Source: a virus
Direction: 5' to 3' (one strand)
Virus record (IMG/VR): IMGVR_UViG_3300013093_000023
Location: 1 to 64,000 of that record
Length of the DNA stretch: 64,000 bases
A program made the translations under genes and the position numbers. This document shows positions 52,922 to 62,007 of this stretch, in pieces. The notes below the pieces were generated by a model. It did not search any database. It was not told the DNA's origin and worked only from the letters and a program-made list of their open reading frames with translations. Position 1 is the stretch's first letter; the number at the start of each line of letters is the position of its first letter.

Positions 52922-54613
52922 TTAAAGTGGACCGCCACCTGCGGCTGCACCGGGGCCAGCTGGGCTTCCGGCCATTTCTTGTCCGGCAGGAGCGCCTACT
53001 CCTGTGTCTTGTCCTAGTCCATCTAGTTCAGCATCAACACGACCTGGGGTAATGTTTACACCACCTAAGCTAGGAGCATCAGGTTTAGCTAGTTCAGTAT
53101 CGCCACGTTCTTCGGCCCAGGCTGTTTCGTTTTCACTTAGCTCTTGTTCACTCATACCTAAGTAACGTTTCATTAAGAAACGTTTGCTCAAATAAGGAAC
53201 CTGTTCTAACTGTGCGAAGTTAGTAATACGTGCGGCATCAATATCAGCCTGGCGATATTGAGCAAAGTTTTGCGGTTCATTGAATGTTAAATCAAATAAT
53301 GATCCATCAATATTAAAGCCTCTCCAACGCATAAACAGCTTAAACTCACTGTCTAACTTGTCGGCAATCATTGCCTGTAAACGCTGGCAATATTGGTTAA
53401 AGCGCCATTCTTGTATAAGTGCTGTACCAACACGACCGTCTGTGTAGGCCTGGCTACCGTCTTCGGCTGTAGTAGGCAAGTAGCTACTAGGAATACGCAA
53501 ACCACGGAATAACTTGTTGGTAAAGAAGCGTAAGTCTGTAATTTCGCCTAGGTTTTGTCCACCCTGTAGTACGTCCACTTTACTGCCACGGCCTTCGGCT
53601 GTTACCGGAAAGAAGTAGTCTTCGTTTTGGCTCAAAGGATTATATGTAGAATCCATCATACTTTGTCCGCCGGTGTTATTAGCACTAGGCATACGACGCT
53701 GATGAATTTCATTTTTAATACGTTCAACAAATGCCATGGCCATATGACTTGGCATATTACCTACGTCAATTGTAAACACACGACGCTCTGGAGCACGTTG
53801 TACACGATAGATAATAATACTATCTTCTAACAGTTCTTTTTGTTTAAACACCTTAAAGATGTTTTCTAATACAGAGTTACCAAATGGCCAATATACGTCT
53901 AAGCCTTCAGTTAGGCTAATATGAACCACGTGTTCGGCATTAATAACTGCTTCATTTTTACTGTGACTAAAACGTGAACCACCGCCAAATGGGCTTTGTG
54001 GTTGTGTATAGCTACCGCTTGGGCCACCAACCTGTGGGTGATTCATATATGTGTCTGTTGTAGCTACTGCTGTTACTGTTAAGTTTTGAAAGTTAGGATT
54101 TAGGTCTTTAACTAGGTACTGCTCGGGCTTTTTGCCTTCGCCTTCATTGACAATAACTTTAGTAACCTTAGACATTTCTGTCCAATATAATTTAAAGTTT
54201 TCTGGATCACGTAGGAACACTTGGTCTCCGTATTTGAATACGTTGCGTACCATTTTAAAGATACGCTTGTTAAATTCATTAAGTGCTACCCATTGTTGTA
54301 GCTGTTCTTTAATGATTTTAACTTCGTTATCACTAGGTTGTTCTTTGAACTTGACAGTAAACGCTGTGTGGTTTTCTAAGTTCTTTTGTGTACAGAATTC
54401 AGCAAGAATGTCTAGTGCGGCATTAACTTCTGAATCCATATCCATTTGTTCGTACTGATTGTAACGTTCAACACGATTTGGTTGACCAGTATACACTTCA
54501 GGTAACTGACTTTGATAGTTGCGATAACCAGGATCCGCTAATCGTCCGCCACCTAAGGGGCTGATGTTGCTAGGTAAGTTACTGGTTTTAAAGTATTTTT
54601 TCCAACCGGCCAT
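52922..54613 (-). CDS. 20: Portal vertex protein gp20
   Basis: 563 aa, against 524 in T4. MAGWKKYFKTSNLPSNISPL, then YTGQPNRVERYNQYEQMDMD, SEVNAALDILAEFCTQKN, FGNSVLENIFKVFKQKELLE, DSIIIYRVQRAPERRVFTID and GNMPSHMAMAFVERIKNEIH, NKLFRGLRIPSSYLPTTAED: all are gp20 hallmarks, including the cyanophage-type wing and stem. The C-terminal ~60 residues are Gly/Ala/Pro-rich and low complexity. gp20 forms the dodecameric connector that nucleates the head. It has its own late promoter and starts the head operon gp20-67-68-21-22-23. Confidence 0.96.
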   Translation of the reverse strand: MAGWKKYFKTSNLPSNISPLGGGRLADPGYRNYQSQLPEVYTGQPNRVERYNQYEQMDMDSEVNAALDILAEFCTQKNLENHTAFTVKFKEQPSDNEVKIIKEQLQQWVALNEFNKRIFKMVRNVFKYGDQVFLRDPENFKLYWTEMSKVTKVIVNEGEGKKPEQYLVKDLNPNFQNLTVTAVATTDTYMNHPQVGGPSGSYTQPQSPFGGGSRFSHSKNEAVINAEHVVHISLTEGLDVYWPFGNSVLENIFKVFKQKELLEDSIIIYRVQRAPERRVFTIDVGNMPSHMAMAFVERIKNEIHQRRMPSANNTGGQSMMDSTYNPLSQNEDYFFPVTAEGRGSKVDVLQGGQNLGEITDLRFFTNKLFRGLRIPSSYLPTTAEDGSQAYTDGRVGTALIQEWRFNQYCQRLQAMIADKLDSEFKLFMRWRGFNIDGSLFDLTFNEPQNFAQYRQADIDAARITNFAQLEQVPYLSKRFLMKRYLGMSEQELSENETAWAEERGDTELAKPDAPSLGGVNITPGRVDAELDGLGQDTGVGAPAGQEMAGSPAGPGAAAGGGPL

Positions 54614-54646: not shown

Positions 54647-57226
54647 TTAGATGAGAGACATACTAATATTTTCCGAAACATCCTTGTGCGCTTTAGTAAC
54701 TCGTACTAATTCTTTAACTTCATTGATTAATTCAGCCATTCCGGGCAACATACCATTTTTTAAAGGTGTAATTAATTCGTCGCGTCCGCCTTCGCCGACG
54801 TTAACGCCCACTCCGCCAGTTTTGGAACTAACAATAGCGCCATCTTTAAGTTCTGCGTGGAAATGGCCGCCAATGGCAGCATCACTCGGTTTAATATATT
54901 CATCGTCAACTGTTTTAAATCCAAGTGCTATAATAGCGGCTTTAATTGCTTCGGATCTTTTTAATATTGTTGGATCTGTGTCGTTTACCTTGGCGTTATA
55001 GCCAGGTATAGTGATATCCATTGCACGACCAATGCCGTGCTTTGAATTGCGATGTGGGGCAAATGTTGTAGCATCGTTAGCTGATGATATCGTTGCGCCT
55101 TTTAAAGGATTGTTGGCATCAGTTTGTGCTTTTGCTAAGTTAGTGATTGCGGCCTGTAGATCTGGAGTGATTTGTCCGTATCCTTGTGCACCGTTAGTGT
55201 TTACTCCAGAGAAATCTGGAGTTTTTCCATCCTTAACACTAGGGATTCTACTAGATCCCCCATCTTTTCTTTTTTGATATTTTTCGTAGGCATCATAACT
55301 AGCAGTTCCAAGACCTAAGGCACCAGTGCCAATTATTGCTGTACTACCACCTAAGGTAAATGGTTCGGCGATTGCACCAACACCTATCATAACAGCACCA
55401 AGCAAACCTTGGGCAATATCTAATCCGTAGGCTTCCCAGAATCCCTCATCTTCACCTTTGTATTTGCCAATTTCTATATAAAAGTCTCTGAGAGCTTTAT
55501 CTAATGCTCCTAGGATTGCTGTAGTATAAAGAGCAAACTGTCCTAGTTCGTTTTTAGCCAGGTTTTGTAAAGTTATAGCAAAGTTCTGTGCAGTATGAGC
55601 GGCTTCAACCATTTGTGTTGTTAGGCCGTCATTGGCTGTTTTAAGACTCTCAGCATTTTGTTGTGCTTTTCTAACACCTTCTTCAGAAATTAAATCAGAC
55701 TTTCTAATTTGGTCGCTAAGTGCTTTGTTTAGTTCTGACATTCCGCCTGCAAGACCAGCAATACCAATTTGTGTAAATGTATCGATTTGTTTCATAAACA
55801 TATCGTTAGTTTTACCTTGTAGTTGCTGATTTTCTTCTAATTGTTTTTGTGTGCTTAGGTTACCAGATTTTATAGCTTCAACTGTTCCGTATATTTGCTC
55901 TGATATTGCCGCACTTTGACTTGACATTATCGCACCTTCAGTATTGATTACCTGACCAAGCAATAATCCTTCCATAACGCTTTTTTGCATTACCGGAGTC
56001 ATAGTAGCCATTGCAGCCAATGTCTTTTGATATGTGCCAGGAAACTGGTTTTCTAATTCCAATAACTTAGCCCGGAATGCCGCTTGTGTAGCTAACCCTC
56101 TAACTTCTTCCATTTTCTTACGTGCGTCTTCGCCTGTGATAGATGATATCACACGTAGATTTTTAGCGTATTCTTCGGTAGCTCTTGCTATGCCAGCCGG
56201 ATCTTTTATCATATCCGATCTAGATGCTCGCATATCTGCGATAGTCTCAGCTACTAGTTGAACCTGCTCTTCAAATCCGTAGCCAAGTCTTAATAAATTG
56301 TCAGTCATGTTAGTTGCCTTCATAACCTGACCAACTCTGCCAACCATCTTAACAGTCTCTGTAATACTCATACCAGAGGCAGCAAAAGTTTCTGTGTTCT
56401 TGGCTACAACATTTGATAACTGTGTAATTGTTAATCCAGCTTTATCAGCGGCATCATACATACCAGTCATGCCATTGGCAAATGTAGCACCTGCGGCTGT
56501 TAATTTATTAAACGATTCCATGGTCATTTCTAACTGCTTGACCATAAAGTTAACAATGAACTTACCAGTAGCCGTTGCCGCATCTGCTAGTCCGCCAAAT
56601 GCCATTGCTAAACCAGTTGTGGCTACTCCAAGAATTTTCCAATACCCTGGTAATACCTGGGTCATTCCCATACCAACGGCGCTCATACCAGCCGCCAGGG
56701 CCTGTGTACCAGCATTGGCTACATCCATAGCACCATTCATAACACCACCGGCTAGACTAAAAGCACTTGCTCCGCTTTGTAATCCGTTGGCTAAATTGCC
56801 CATCGACCTTGCGGCAATACCAACGGCCGACACACCAAATCCTGCTAGTGCTTTTGTGCTAGTTAATACTGTGTCTATAAAGGCTTTTTTTGCTATATTA
56901 GACTTTTGAGTAATTTCTAACTCTTTTTTCATTCCCTGCAACTGTTCACGTTGCTCGGCAGCCACTTCACCTGTTTTATCAGCTAATTCTTCAAGTTTAT
57001 CTTCAACGTCACTTATTTGATATGTTAGATCTTTAAACGCCGCTTTACCAGCTAGCATTCCTTTAGTGATATCTCCAAAGCTGGCTTTGTTACGTTTTAA
57101 TGCGGCTTCAAACTTAGCCATTTCTTCAATAGGGTCACCCTTGAAGGTTGGTCCGCCAAACGAACCACGCGATTCCCGCATAGCATCCATAAATGCTTGT
57201 TTTAGATCATCTTTACTAAAGTCCAT
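54647..57226 (-). CDS. Tail tape-measure protein with C-terminal M15-type peptidase motif
   Basis: 859 aa. The N-terminal ~150 residues are charged helices (DVEDKLEELADKTGEVAAEQ, then LQGMKKELEITQKSN). A long Ala/Gly-rich hydrophobic stretch follows (~125-245), then helical segments with conserved-looking turns to ~620, and a membrane-like segment GLLGAVMIGVGAIAEPFTLG. This is the composition of a tape measure. Near the C-terminus, NSKHGIGRAMDITIPGYN (His730, Asp737) and GGHFHAEL (His788, His790) reproduce the zinc-ligand and catalytic pattern of M15 D,D-/L,D-carboxypeptidases. The protein may thus also cut peptidoglycan at DNA entry. It replaces T4 gp29 by role and lies opposite the gp26-like gene. 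Confidence 0.85.
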   Translation of the reverse strand: MDFSKDDLKQAFMDAMRESRGSFGGPTFKGDPIEEMAKFEAALKRNKASFGDITKGMLAGKAAFKDLTYQISDVEDKLEELADKTGEVAAEQREQLQGMKKELEITQKSNIAKKAFIDTVLTSTKALAGFGVSAVGIAARSMGNLANGLQSGASAFSLAGGVMNGAMDVANAGTQALAAGMSAVGMGMTQVLPGYWKILGVATTGLAMAFGGLADAATATGKFIVNFMVKQLEMTMESFNKLTAAGATFANGMTGMYDAADKAGLTITQLSNVVAKNTETFAASGMSITETVKMVGRVGQVMKATNMTDNLLRLGYGFEEQVQLVAETIADMRASRSDMIKDPAGIARATEEYAKNLRVISSITGEDARKKMEEVRGLATQAAFRAKLLELENQFPGTYQKTLAAMATMTPVMQKSVMEGLLLGQVINTEGAIMSSQSAAISEQIYGTVEAIKSGNLSTQKQLEENQQLQGKTNDMFMKQIDTFTQIGIAGLAGGMSELNKALSDQIRKSDLISEEGVRKAQQNAESLKTANDGLTTQMVEAAHTAQNFAITLQNLAKNELGQFALYTTAILGALDKALRDFYIEIGKYKGEDEGFWEAYGLDIAQGLLGAVMIGVGAIAEPFTLGGSTAIIGTGALGLGTASYDAYEKYQKRKDGGSSRIPSVKDGKTPDFSGVNTNGAQGYGQITPDLQAAITNLAKAQTDANNPLKGATISSANDATTFAPHRNSKHGIGRAMDITIPGYNAKVNDTDPTILKRSEAIKAAIIALGFKTVDDEYIKPSDAAIGGHFHAELKDGAIVSSKTGGVGVNVGEGGRDELITPLKNGMLPGMAELINEVKELVRVTKAHKDVSENISMSLI

Positions 57227-57281: not shown

Positions 57282-58136
57282 ATGGATACAAAACCAATTA
57301 ATCCTTTGGTCAAGCATTTTAGACGCCCAACAATTTATTTCAAATTACCAAGCAACGGACGTTTTTGGCCAGACGACGCACTAGATTTACCAGTAACTGG
57401 AGAAATCCCGGTTTATCCAATGACAGCCGGAGACGAAGTAACACTAAAAACTCCCGACGCACTAATGAACGGCAACGGTATAGTAGATGTTATTAAAAGC
57501 TGTTGTCCAAATATCAAAGACCCCTGGCAAACACCTAGCGTTGATGTTGACTCTATTTTGATTGCTATACGTGTTGCTAGTTATGGACAACTTATGCCTA
57601 TCAATGCCAAGTGCCCATATTGCGACCACGAGCACGATTATGATGCCGATTTATCAGTAGCCAGTAGCGGAATTAAATGCCCGGACTACGATACTACAAT
57701 TGAATTTAACGATTTAAAAATTAAACTACGTCCGCAAAAATATTTTAACGTAACTAAATCAAATATTATTAATTTTGAAGAACAACGTATAATCCAATCT
57801 TTACAAGATACTAGCATCACAGAAGAAGTTAGAAATGCTAAACTTAAAGAAAGTATGAGGAAAATAGTTGATTTAAACAATCAACTAATTGTTTCTGCTA
57901 CAGAATACATTGAAACAGATGATGGCTCTAGAGTAACCGACGAAGAGTTTATTAAAGAATTTTATCAAAACGCCGAAGCCCAGATTACTAGATTAATTGA
58001 AGCAAGATTAACCGCTATTGCTAATGAAGCCGCTATCCCACCATTTAAACTTAAATGCACAGAAACAGACTGTGGCAAAACATTTGAAGTACCAATGGAG
58101 TTTGACTACTCACGTTTTTTCGCGATCGGCTCTTAA
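57282..58136 (+). CDS. 26: gp26-like baseplate hub / tail assembly protein
   Basis: 284 aa, against 208 in T4 gp26. MDTKPINPLVKHFRRPTIYF, then KLPSNGRFWPDDALDL, EIPVYPMTAGDEVTLKTPDA, LMNGNGIVDVIKSCCPNIKD and ILIAIRVASYGQLMPINAKC match T4 gp26 and the PF12322 (T4 baseplate) family. Two Cys pairs follow: CPYC in CPYCDHEHDYD, and C..C near the end (CTETDCGKTF), probably zinc ribbons. The zero-frame product ends EFDYSRFFAIGS. Just before that end, a perfect slippery heptamer can divert ribosomes into the next reading frame (see the neighbouring feature). In T4, gp26 and gp51 help to assemble the hub. The gene is adjacent to and divergent from the tape-measure gene. Confidence 0.88.
   Translation: MDTKPINPLVKHFRRPTIYFKLPSNGRFWPDDALDLPVTGEIPVYPMTAGDEVTLKTPDALMNGNGIVDVIKSCCPNIKDPWQTPSVDVDSILIAIRVASYGQLMPINAKCPYCDHEHDYDADLSVASSGIKCPDYDTTIEFNDLKIKLRPQKYFNVTKSNIINFEEQRIIQSLQDTSITEEVRNAKLKESMRKIVDLNNQLIVSATEYIETDDGSRVTDEEFIKEFYQNAEAQITRLIEARLTAIANEAAIPPFKLKCTETDCGKTFEVPMEFDYSRFFAIGS
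58115..58121 (+). promoter_or_regulatory. Putative -1 ribosomal frameshift site (T TTT TTC)
   Basis: In the gp26-like frame the codons read CGT TTT TTC, so the heptamer T TTT TTC has the canonical X XXY YYZ spacing. Both tRNAs can re-pair perfectly (TTT TTT) after slipping back one base. The -1 frame is then open for 76 codons to 58351. A 6-bp hairpin AGGAGA / TCTCCT (58149-58167) lies 27 bases downstream, a little far for a classic stimulator. Confidence 0.65.
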
Positions 58137-58351
58137 CACTCTCTAACGAGGAGACTATAGATCTCCTTAATCGTTACGAAAGAGATGCAAGGGCCGTTAA
58201 AGAAGAAGCACTTAAAATGAGTTGGTTTATGCGTGGTGGAATAAGCTACGACGAAGCTATGATGTTAAGTAATCAAGAGCGCGAGATTATTGCTAGTATT
58301 ATTAAGAAAAACATGGAAACCACTAAAGAATCGGGTTTACCATTCTTTTAG
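58115..58351 (+). CDS. gp51-like extension, likely expressed as a -1 frameshift fusion to gp26-like protein
   Basis: This open frame ends at TAG 58349-58351. Its conserved-looking sequence (NEETIDLLNRYERDARAVKE, then MSWFMRGGISYDEAMMLSNQ, EREIIASIIKKNMETTKESG, LPFF) resembles small gp51-type proteins I know downstream of gp26 in aquatic T4-like phages. There is no ATG, GTG or TTG in frame between the previous stop (58103) and the ATG at 58217, which lies well inside the conserved part. Slippage at 58115-58121 joins it to residue 280 of the gp26-like protein and adds 76 aa, giving a fusion of about 356 aa. This would mimic the lambda G/G-T tail assembly chaperones, which also lie beside the tape-measure gene. 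If the slip does not occur, a 44-aa product from 58217 would be the alternative. Confidence 0.7.
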   Translation, partial: FFRDRLLTLSNEETIDLLNRYERDARAVKEEALKMSWFMRGGISYDEAMMLSNQEREIIASIIKKNMETTKESGLPFF

Positions 58352-58726: not shown

Positions 58727-59257
58727 TTACAGCGATGAGTCTTCCGTCCCTGCGATCCTAGATCCAGTTGTCTTAGGCACACGAGTTTGACCTGTGCTAG
58801 TCGTAACTGTGGACTTGGTGTCTAGTGAACTTATCTTGTTGATAATATGTGAGCCATGTACACGGACCTGTATGTGTCCGTTATAATAATCTTCTGTTTC
58901 TAATACTCTGCGAGCAAATTGTTCTCTCGCTTCAATGTAACTGCATTCTGCTTTGCTTGAGCAATAGTATAAGATTTCTCTACTAAAATTGTCAACGCCT
59001 AATGCTACTACATCTTTTGTTAATTCGGGACTTGAGCCATAATATGTTTGCCAATCACTGTCGATACTTCCACGTATCTTTTTTCTTTTCTTCTTACCGT
59101 TTTTAAGTTTTACCATACGATAAGTTGTTTTTTTAAAACGTGCTAATTTTTTTCCAATATATTTCCTGCCAGTTAGTTTATTTGTAATCAAATAAACAAA
59201 ACCAACACACGTTTCAGGTAAAGTTTCTACTACGGAATTTTCGAATAACCATGTCAT
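58727..59257 (-). CDS. GIY-YIG nuclease-domain protein
   Basis: 176 aa. GFVYLITNKLTGRKYIGKKL is a complete GIY-YIG core (GFVYLI-x8-KYIGKK). It is followed by a basic insert (KLKNGKKKRKKIRGS), then WQTYYGSSPELTKDVVALGV, FSREILYYCSSKAECSYIEA (catalytic-type Glu) and DYYNGHIQVRV. This version is frequent in aquatic T4-like phages as a free-standing protein. The last ~35 residues are a Ser/Thr-rich tail (STVTTSTGQTRVPKTTGSRI) that relatives appear to lack, perhaps a read-on extension into the intergenic region. It may be a homing endonuclease or a repair/recombination nuclease; there is no intron or clear target site next to it. Confidence 0.82.
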   Translation of the reverse strand: MTWLFENSVVETLPETCVGFVYLITNKLTGRKYIGKKLARFKKTTYRMVKLKNGKKKRKKIRGSIDSDWQTYYGSSPELTKDVVALGVDNFSREILYYCSSKAECSYIEAREQFARRVLETEDYYNGHIQVRVHGSHIINKISSLDTKSTVTTSTGQTRVPKTTGSRIAGTEDSSL

Positions 59258-59290: not shown

Positions 59291-59734
59291 TCATAATTTT
59301 TCTCCGTAAATCCACCCTAATTGCTGTGTTCGATGTATCCAAGTAAAAATAGGAGTGGTAAACGACAGCTGCCATTCGCCATTCCAACCTAAATAATTGC
59401 TTTTTAAACTATCCCTACCGGTTGGGTAGTATGTAGCTTGGTACATAAAATCATCTAACTTGTAGCCCTCTATTTCTATAGGATGTATGTAAATTGCTTT
59501 GTCTGATACAATTTTGCCGTCATTAACAACAGTATCAGCATCAGTTTTATTAGTTAATCCAACACTGAGCACGTGTTTGCCGTCCTCTAGTGTAACATCA
59601 AAATTGTAAGTGAGCTGTTCTTTTAGTATGCCCTGATCCTGCAGGTTATCGTCGATCTTAATAAAAAACTCTGGCCAGCAATCGTCGTAGCCCTTAGGCT
59701 CTATAGTTAATCGAAACTGTAAATTAGTAGCCAT
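59291..59734 (-). CDS. Beta-rich conserved protein, unknown
   Basis: 147 aa from the ATG at 59734 (MATNLQFRLTIEPKGYDDCW). I prefer this to the in-frame upstream start at 59779, because this start overlaps the radical SAM stop (ATGGCTACTAA) in the manner of coupled genes. FFIKIDDNLQDQGILKEQLT, then YNFDVTLEDGKHVLSVGLTN, KTDADTVVNDGKIVSDKAIY and FMYQATYYPTG form a jelly-roll-like pattern seen in other phages as a carbohydrate-binding-type or unknown beta protein. It is the last gene of the radical SAM operon. A substrate or scaffold for those enzymes is one possibility; no evidence decides it. Confidence 0.7.
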   Translation of the reverse strand: MATNLQFRLTIEPKGYDDCWPEFFIKIDDNLQDQGILKEQLTYNFDVTLEDGKHVLSVGLTNKTDADTVVNDGKIVSDKAIYIHPIEIEGYKLDDFMYQATYYPTGRDSLKSNYLGWNGEWQLSFTTPIFTWIHRTQQLGWIYGEKL

Positions 59735-61028
59735 TTGATTCAAACCATTCTTGTAATACAGGAAACGCCGCCACAACACTATTCTTACGCATAGTATCTA
59801 ACTGCTTGAACTTTAACACACTAGCTCTAGCAAGGTCTACATCAACGTTGCCCGGCTCTAAACTACAAATTGCCGCTTCAATTTCTTTTATTAGATTTTC
59901 TAAAACATATTCTTTGTTTCTAAAGTTAGTTAGACCTTTAATACGATGATCGGTTAAAGCACGATAACGTTCTAATTGAGCCTGAAATTGTTTTTGTAAA
60001 GGTATTTTTATTGAATCGGGCAACAATTGAATCTGTTGCCACGGTGGATCAACAGCAAAATAACTGTTTAGTAAAAAGTCATTGTCATAGCACCAATCAA
60101 TTAATTGACTGTATTCTGTAATGGTCAACAGCGTTGGAACTGTGCGAACAACAAAATCTACATTGTCTGGAGCAGACATTTGAAACTCAGCTATGTTTAA
60201 TAGTATAGCATCTATGCTACTACCATAGCGTACATAGTTGTTGGATTCGCTGACTGTTTCTACACTCATACCAATCTCAACACGCTTAAACTTGGCTAGC
60301 TTATCCCACAGATCATCAATAGGATGCATACAGTTAGTAGTAAAACTAAAGCTAAAGTCTGTGCGATTATTGCTGACAAATAGGTCTATTAGTTGTCTAA
60401 ATCGCTTGTTTATAGTAGGCTCGCCGCCGATAATATGTAGGCTGAGTAAATCAGTAGTTAGTAGGGTTTGACAAAAGTTATTCCAAATGTCCTGATCATC
60501 AGTCCAATTAAGCCTGCGAGCATCTTTAGCCCAACCTAAGACTTTATAATCCTGTGCTAGTTTAAAGCTGGCATTTGGACTACACATAATACAGGATAAA
60601 TCACATTCGTTGCCCAGGCTCAAATGATAACTTGCTGGCTTTGTAACTGTAACACCATCATTGGCCAGACTGTATTCAAATGCGGCTCTGTGCGGGCTTT
60701 GTTCAAAACTCTTATAAAAATTCTTGTCGTAAAAAATAACACTCTTTAAGTTTTCTTTGATACGTTTACTGTGATTACCTATTGAGTCTTGATGTTGGCA
60801 AACACTGCAGGCAGGATTGGGCACATCTGACATCTTGCTTAATCGTTCATCACGTAACCTACGACTTTGCCAATACTCTGCCACAGGATAATTACGTATG
60901 TTCCACTCCCGAGCATCTGCCGTGTCGGTAATAAGCTCACTCATACAGCCACAAAGATCATAGCTACCATCGTGATTGATGTGTAGCTCGTACCAGGGTA
61001 TGTTACAAAATATATCTTTATTCGGCAT
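59724..61028 (-). CDS. Radical SAM enzyme with N-terminal cysteine-rich (twitch/SPASM-like) region
   Basis: 434 aa. The radical SAM cluster motif CDLSCIMC (Cys142, Cys146, Cys149) and IIGGEPTINKRFRQLIDLFV (GGE motif binding SAM) are intact. VEIGMSVETVSESNNYVRYG gives the later barrel strands. The N-terminal ~80 residues carry CNIPWYELHINHDGSYDLCG, then CM and CSVCQHQ, the pattern of an auxiliary Fe-S (twitch) domain placed before the barrel. Such proteins occur in phages and in peptide- or sugar-modification loci, but the reaction is unknown. It overlaps the second radical SAM gene by 11 bp and the downstream beta protein by 11 bp. Confidence 0.88.
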   Translation of the reverse strand: MPNKDIFCNIPWYELHINHDGSYDLCGCMSELITDTADAREWNIRNYPVAEYWQSRRLRDERLSKMSDVPNPACSVCQHQDSIGNHSKRIKENLKSVIFYDKNFYKSFEQSPHRAAFEYSLANDGVTVTKPASYHLSLGNECDLSCIMCSPNASFKLAQDYKVLGWAKDARRLNWTDDQDIWNNFCQTLLTTDLLSLHIIGGEPTINKRFRQLIDLFVSNNRTDFSFSFTTNCMHPIDDLWDKLAKFKRVEIGMSVETVSESNNYVRYGSSIDAILLNIAEFQMSAPDNVDFVVRTVPTLLTITEYSQLIDWCYDNDFLLNSYFAVDPPWQQIQLLPDSIKIPLQKQFQAQLERYRALTDHRIKGLTNFRNKEYVLENLIKEIEAAICSLEPGNVDVDLARASVLKFKQLDTMRKNSVVAAFPVLQEWFESNGY

Positions 61029-62007
61029 TTTTACACTTTAGTTTACAAATATCTAGTGGTGCTATTTCAAAGCGTGTGTACATTTCGTCCCATAATGGAT
61101 CATTGATAATTTCAGTAAGTGTACGATGTTTAATTGACAACTGTTCTCGATGTTTTTCAAAGAAATCATTTTCCAAGTAACCTGAATTAAACCAAGGACA
61201 AGGAAATACATAACCATCTACATTGATAAACATAGGTATGTCCCAATTGGCACATCGAGCCCACGAGTGGCGTTGACGTGTTTCATAAAATATAACAGGG
61301 ATACCGCTTTTTAATTTTTCCTGCATAACTTCATACTTGCCTGTAGCAACCCATCCACCCACAGGCTTCAATGGGTCTACACCGTTGACAAGATACTGAT
61401 TGTCAAACTTTGTACTCAGTACAGCTTCAAATGTATCAAATTCTAATTCACGTGCTAGGTCTTGTATCCAGGGCATCTTATCTTCGTTAAACTTGAAATA
61501 GATAGCTGACCAATTCATTTGTGCCTTAGTTACTCGTCTTAAAGCACGAGCACCTGCTACAATTGAATCAAAGTCGCTGTTAACACGATACTGTTCATTA
61601 CTGGCCTGATCCCACCCGTCAACACTAAATGTAACTTTGTCATTGGGCCTTAGGTACATACCTAGTTCTTGCCACCACGCTTCGGGCTTGTAACTACCAT
61701 TAGTAACAATAATCAAGCTGACATTGAACCGTGATCGCTTAATGTACTCCACAATAGGTAAAAAGTCGCGAGCATATATAGGATCACCTATGTCGCCACA
61801 GAAAGTTATTTCCTGTATCTCTTTTAGTAGGTCCGGGGTAAAGGCACGCTGAAACTCTAATAGAGTAATTTCTTTGTTTAGGCTATCTGGATGTAACTCC
61901 GTGCGAGGGCATCGAGGGCATTTAAGCGTACACTTACTACTTAATTCGATGTGTATTCTACGATGACTCAGTAATCTCGACGTCGGTGTTGTAACTTGTA
62001 TATCCAT
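61018..62007 (-). CDS. Radical SAM enzyme, second of a pair (SPASM-like C-terminus)
   Basis: 329 aa. RRIHIELSSKCTLKCPRCPR contains CxxxCxxC (Cys26, Cys30, Cys33). EITFCGDIGDPIYARDF and VSLIIVTNGSYKPEAWWQEL are the next barrel motifs, and VTFSVDGWDQASNEQYRVNS follows. C-terminal Cys (CANWDIPMFINVDGYVFPCP, and CKLKCKNAE) suggest a SPASM-like auxiliary cluster. The start overlaps the gp46 stop by 50 bp. No later ATG fits, because the Cys motif begins at residue 26. Being translationally coupled to the other radical SAM gene, the two probably act in one pathway, perhaps peptide, nucleobase or sugar modification. Confidence 0.87.
   Translation of the reverse strand: MDIQVTTPTSRLLSHRRIHIELSSKCTLKCPRCPRTELHPDSLNKEITLLEFQRAFTPDLLKEIQEITFCGDIGDPIYARDFLPIVEYIKRSRFNVSLIIVTNGSYKPEAWWQELGMYLRPNDKVTFSVDGWDQASNEQYRVNSDFDSIVAGARALRRVTKAQMNWSAIYFKFNEDKMPWIQDLARELEFDTFEAVLSTKFDNQYLVNGVDPLKPVGGWVATGKYEVMQEKLKSGIPVIFYETRQRHSWARCANWDIPMFINVDGYVFPCPWFNSGYLENDFFEKHREQLSIKHRTLTEIINDPLWDEMYTRFEIAPLDICKLKCKNAE

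Follow-up and report, generated by a model that had tools for sequence, protein, structure and literature searches.

A conserved slippery heptamer in the gp26-like gene of T4-type phages probably directs a -1 ribosomal frameshift that yields short and long tail-assembly chaperones

We analysed 64,000 nucleotides of viral DNA (the window; positions 1 to 64,000 of IMG/VR record IMGVR_UViG_3300013093_000023, full record 124,550 bp) and conclude that one gene in it very probably gives rise to both a short and a long tail-assembly chaperone through -1 programmed ribosomal frameshifting. The gene (57282..58136, + strand) encodes in its zero frame a gp26-like protein of 284 amino acids, a putative short tail-assembly chaperone (TAC-N), which matched the PF12322 (T4_baseplate family) profile with 58.6 bits against a curated cut-off of 24.5 (E 9e-16) and the baseplate hub family phrog_150 (E 2e-20). 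The first-pass annotation of this DNA had stated that PF12322 covers both gp26 and gp51 of T4, and both T4 proteins indeed matched the profile. The gp26-like product ends in ...DYSRFFAIGS*, encoded by TCA CGT TTT TTC GCG ATC GGC TCT TAA. This 3' end contains a slippery heptamer, T TTT TTC (58115..58121, + strand), in the phase X XXY YYZ; it is read as CGT TTT TTC in the zero frame, and four sense codons separate it from the TAA stop of the short form (58134..58136, + strand). In the -1 frame, a C-terminal extension of 76 codons (58121..58351, + strand; RDRLLTLSNE...SGLPFF*), accessible only after a slip, runs to a stop at 58349-58351, and the preceding stop in that frame is the TGA at 58103. 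From this upstream stop to position 58217 the -1 frame contains no ATG, GTG, TTG or CTG. Re-reading the sequence thus agreed with the first-pass annotation on the perfect in-phase heptamer near the end of the gp26-like frame, on the 76-codon open -1 frame and on the lack of a -1 start before 58217.

The motif alone carries no meaning, because the window has 12 copies of TTTTTTC where 15 would be expected by chance; we dropped heptamer frequency as evidence, the count being in line with chance. Its placement is more telling. Among 50 greedily chosen, non-overlapping genes, a chance control confined to the window, only the gp26-like gene had an in-phase slippery heptamer within its last 25 codons followed by a -1 frame that stayed open for 50 codons or more beyond the stop. 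Chance is excluded as an explanation of the place, phase and conservation of the heptamer, and conservation across relatives is decisive here.

An alignment across related genomes, which the first-pass annotation had proposed as a check, found the heptamer conserved and the -1 frame constrained. We compared 127 homologous loci from IMG/VR relatives, jumbo phages, cyanophages and phages of Rhizobium, Caulobacter, Stenotrophomonas, Vibrio and Aeromonas; these loci are not independent, many being close relatives, but at the far end of the range the proteins are only about 23-30% identical. TTTTTT(C/T/G) stood in the same register in 124 of them (TTTTTTC in 120, TTTTTTT in 3 and TTTTTTG in 1). TTTTTTC was present in all 19 of the closest IMG/VR relatives that cover the junction (protein identity 45-60%), in 79 of 80 cyanophage-like contig loci and in cyanophage P-SSM7. 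The heptamer was also found in the jumbo phages Atu_ph07, Phosso, RaK2, PA5oct, 121Q, Vibrio 2.275, XacN1, SCTP-2, GAP32, CBB, Munch, BF and others, and the hosts of such phages include Agrobacterium, Sinorhizobium, Klebsiella, Pseudomonas, Escherichia, Vibrio, Salicola, Cronobacter, Pectobacterium, Salmonella, Serratia and Xanthomonas. It occurs in Cr30, phiAS5, Bhz51 and the Vibrio phages D483 and V07 as well, and in the Rhizobium phages IC12 and P10VF, the latter with TTTTTTG; XacN1 and Stenotrophomonas CM1 have the TTTTTTT variant. The zero-frame stop follows the heptamer by 0-21 codons, depending on the locus.

Three of the 127 loci are exceptions. Salmonella phage GG32 (Ackermannviridae; L128, 3250-3480) reads GAG ATT TTC ATT TAA, and Vibrio phage K474 (L127, 3180-3405) reads CTT TTT GCG TAATGATG; both have lost the run of six T and still have the tail in the -1 frame, and in K474 an ATG lies at the zero-frame stop. 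The third, L119 (3001-3894 of a 236-kb IMG/VR contig), is the sole cyanophage-type locus with gp26 and tail in one frame (TCTTTTTGGTTAGG), and its record holds a single PF12322 gene. Either this fusion is an assembly or homopolymer error, or the short form has been lost naturally. An AlphaFold model of it as a natural in-frame fusion was of low confidence (pLDDT 66) and was discarded. Homopolymer indels are common, and together with L119 they could suggest that the frameshift is itself a sequencing or assembly indel in one intact long gene. More than 120 loci, drawn from many separate assemblies and isolates, share the two-frame layout, however, with the stop at differing places 0-21 codons past the heptamer, so the comparative data already refute this explanation, to which we give next to no credence.

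We also observed that the codons at the slip site are constrained in ways that favour frameshifting. The register of the heptamer is identical in 108 distinct sequences. In every one of these, the codon 5' of the Phe-Phe pair ends in T (AGT, AAT, TCT, GCT, GAT, CGT, CAT, TAT or GGT), and at least seven amino acids are encoded at this position. The second, A-site Phe codon is TTC in all 75 cyanophage-type and all 15 window-type sequences, whereas TTC makes up only 26% and 19%, respectively, of the Phe codons elsewhere in the same genes. Zero-frame coding alone would require neither the T-ending codon nor the TTC preference. What is conserved is a run of T, and an RNA polymerase slipping on it would likewise reach the -1 frame, so transcriptional slippage could in principle generate the long form in place of ribosomal frameshifting. 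Bacterial polymerase slippage usually needs a run of about 8-9. The run here is exactly 6 long in 105 of the 108 sequences, which is short for a bacterial polymerase, the X XXY YYZ register never varies, and an RNA stem lies 6 nt downstream in the window's family; we regard transcriptional slippage as very improbable, and ribosomal frameshifting as the better reading of the site.

The tail itself is under selection as protein. Across 107 distinct tails the -1 frame had no stops, whereas the zero frame had 659 and the +1 frame 632, and pN was below pS in every pair of tails in both families tested (91/91 and 2145/2145 pairs). In the stretch between the heptamer and the first ATG, pN/pS was 0.50 in the -1 frame versus 0.99 and 1.19 in the others. 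This protein-level constraint is why the first ATG of the -1 frame (58217..58219, + strand) is not thought to be a true start. The tail of PA5oct contains no ATG, GTG or TTG anywhere. Constraint ahead of any start codon, together with this start-less tail, indicates that the tail is read as an extension of gp26 and has no start of its own. The relatives retain the heptamer and the -1 tail, rather than encoding the tail from its own start codon without a heptamer, the pattern that the first-pass annotation had named as contrary to its proposal. Only one PF12322 gene was found in the window's record and in each related record (records that may be incomplete), so the available sequence holds no separate gene for a long form. 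Searching bacterial genomes for the tail found none.

An ATG at or just past the stop in some relatives (Atu_ph07, Phosso, L018, D483, V07 and 121Q), and the separate small tail ORFs called by annotators, would fit another explanation, in which coupled stop-start re-initiation or an internal start yields the tail as a small protein of its own and the T run is incidental. Such starts are not a stable feature of the locus, as the first start ranges from codon 3 to codon 35, the window and RaK2 have none ahead of the conserved residues, and the PA5oct tail has none at all. The protein-level constraint likewise begins ahead of any start codon, and a separate protein would leave the T wobble before Phe-Phe in every sequence unexplained. 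We therefore consider a separate tail protein very unlikely, though a shade more probable than polymerase slippage, and retain the frameshift reading. In the loci L022, L023, L018, L026, L126 and L129, the heptamer is accompanied by a zero-frame stop with an overlapping or adjacent ATG (ATGA/TAATG), so these phages might also make some free tail peptide by coupled re-initiation.

In the window's family and Atu_ph07, the heptamer is followed by a putative stimulatory RNA stem, GGCTCTT...AAGAGCC, which starts exactly 6 nt 3' of it. In the window, a 6-nt spacer (58122..58127, + strand), the length shared by this family and Atu_ph07, leads to the 5' arm GGCTCTT (58128..58134, + strand), which pairs with the 3' arm AAGGGCC (58189..58195, + strand); the last base of the 5' arm is the first base of the TAA stop. 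A structure 5-9 nt from the heptamer, as is looked for in -1 frameshifting, is thus present in this family. Five stem pairs had two-sided (compensatory) changes, in L016, L018, L022 and others, compared with 1.0 in shuffles, and 82% of stem cells were paired versus 25-53% for slid versions; this pairing signal may be due in part to the protein coding of both arms. Two outer stem pairs are broken in L016. Alignment folding of the cyanophages gave no common stem, though several members have a strong hairpin. Upstream, the Shine-Dalgarno-like stimulator GGAG occurs in some relatives and is not conserved.

That slippage occurs, and how often, is inferred. Most ribosomes would terminate at 58134 to give the 284-aa short form, and a minority, with tRNA-Phe on TTT TTC, would move one base backwards on T TTT TTC, aided in the window's family by the stem 6 nt downstream. 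These ribosomes would continue in the -1 frame to produce a 356-aa long form (TAC-NC) with the 76-residue C-terminal tail. Both forms would then coat the tape-measure protein and keep it soluble, with the long form attaching by its tail, and would later give way to the tail tube. The first-pass annotation had proposed just such a short gp26-like product and longer fusion acting as tape-measure chaperones; the heptamer and the conservation of the -1 tail support the two products, and the chaperone role would follow by analogy with lambda G/GT and with T4 gp26 and gp51, which are listed as hub-assembly chaperones, gp51 being absent from the particle (PMC3004832). In public annotation of PA5oct, the gp26-like gene (L025, 4995-5849) has no ESI-MS/MS tag, and the four genes listed towards the portal and tape measure do carry one, which is consistent with absence of the gp26-like protein from virions. 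The CBB homologue of the gp26-like protein is annotated as a structural protein.

T4 has a different arrangement. Its gp26 is a PF12322 short form like the gp26-like protein of the window, ends in ...KEFFELL* with the FF codons TTC TTT, and lacks the heptamer, which was also absent from all close relatives of T4 with a readable gp26 end. T4 gp51 is a separate gene product of 249 aa that combines a PF12322 domain with a C-terminal tail homologous to the cyanophage -1 tails; in a profile comparison these tails matched the gp51 C terminus (residues ~195-249) at 96%, and phrog_634 supports the homology as well. T4 thus has the long form as a gene of its own, without the heptamer, whereas the window phage has one gene and a frameshift. 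The window-family tail matched jumbo-phage tails at 97%, and showed no significant similarity by profile comparison to the T4 gp51 C terminus (2% probability) or the cyanophage tails (0.4%). The label 'gp51-like' in the first-pass annotation consequently holds for the cyanophage tails at the level of sequence, and for the window tail is a statement about position and architecture only. We count the T-evens, with a separate gp51 and no heptamer, as support for frameshifting elsewhere.

The extent of the frameshift is firm on these comparisons: it appears to be the norm in all tested groups apart from the T-evens and the heptamer-less GG32 and K474. We consider it fairly likely that the T TTT TTC frameshift is ancestral and prevailing in the T4 superfamily, and that the T-evens duplicated the gene into gp26 and gp51 and lost the heptamer; a split of the frameshift product into two genes in the T-evens would be the simplest history. 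The tail-assembly chaperones of T4-like phages have been identified by Vladimirov, Gautam and Davidson 2022 (Virology 566:9), whose title points away from frameshifting to another mechanism. As relayed by one citing paper, some T4-like phages do without frameshifting and have the long form as a fused gene of its own besides the short gene; another credits the same study with poly-T signals for frameshifting in T4-like TAC-N genes. Chaperones of this kind were therefore already known, as may be their production by frameshifting in some T4-like phages, so the suggestion of the first-pass annotation that this had not been described for T4-like phages was too strong. If our reading is true, the T-evens are the exception, which reverses the impression given by that title.

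The present comparison adds the apparent breadth and age of the frameshift. Lambda and many other phages are known to make two forms of a tail chaperone by -1 frameshifting. Lambda gpG/gpG-T and the conserved -1 frameshift of tail-assembly chaperone genes were reportedly described by Levin in 1993 and by Xu, Hendrix and Duda in 2004. The window phage resembles lambda in making a short and a long chaperone in this way; it differs in that its PF12322 protein is unrelated in sequence to the lambda protein, or undetectably so, in its heptamer, T TTT TTC, and in gene order, since the lambda chaperone gene lies upstream of the tape measure on the same strand and the window gene is divergent from the putative tape measure. 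A -1 frameshift at a GTTTTT motif in the tail-assembly chaperone of the Vandenendeviridae and Andersonviridae is likewise a bioinformatic case of poly-T frameshifting in a myophage chaperone gene with the -1 frame open in all genomes, in other phage families and with a shorter T motif (PMC12846349). Our results would extend the two-form rule of lambda to T4-type contractile phages at large, including cyanophages and jumbo phages, and explain why annotations of cyanophage and jumbo-phage genomes show 'gp51' as a truncated orphan ORF or overlook it. None of the annotated public records that we inspected marks a frameshift or joined gene, and a practical correction to phage annotation follows. 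Our results also suggest a testable history in which T4 genes 26 and 51 are two halves of an old frameshift product, and the locus supplies a well-conserved natural slippery site.

The gp26-like protein was predicted with a pLDDT of 84.8 (AF2), and its model resembles predicted gp26-type proteins of many myophages in BFVD, T4-like gp26 structures among them; fold comparison with solved structures gave none similar, with nothing below E 0.79. The model also matched uncharacterised BFVD proteins of ~450-690 aa (from Special G, phiEaH2, RSF1, RP12, Motura and others), possibly unrecognised chaperone homologues in other large phages. Two cysteine pairs, C111/C114 and C259/C264 (window 57612-57623 and 58056-58076), are invariant across the gp26-like family, and T4 gp26 and gp51 have the same pairs as CxC/CPxC, which suggests a putative zinc-ribbon-like site. 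The surrounding genes include that of the T4-type portal protein gp20 (52922..54613, - strand; PF07230, E 2e-101), a marker of the T4-type structural block, and, divergent from the gp26-like gene, one for a protein of 859 aa (54647..57226, - strand). We regard the latter as a putative tape-measure gene because it lies between gp20 and gp26 and because RaK2 ORF088 offers an analogy; it had no family match among Pfam and PHROG profiles and no homologue in the phage collection. Its C-terminal part contains HRNSKHGIGRAMDITIPG, which resembles an M15-type peptidase motif, with no Pfam match. In Cr30, an annotated tape measure lies just 3' of the gp26 and tail ORFs. Directly downstream of the gp26-like locus in the window is a gene for a SegE-type GIY-YIG homing endonuclease (58727-59257, - strand), followed by two radical-SAM/SPASM genes (59724-62007, - strand).
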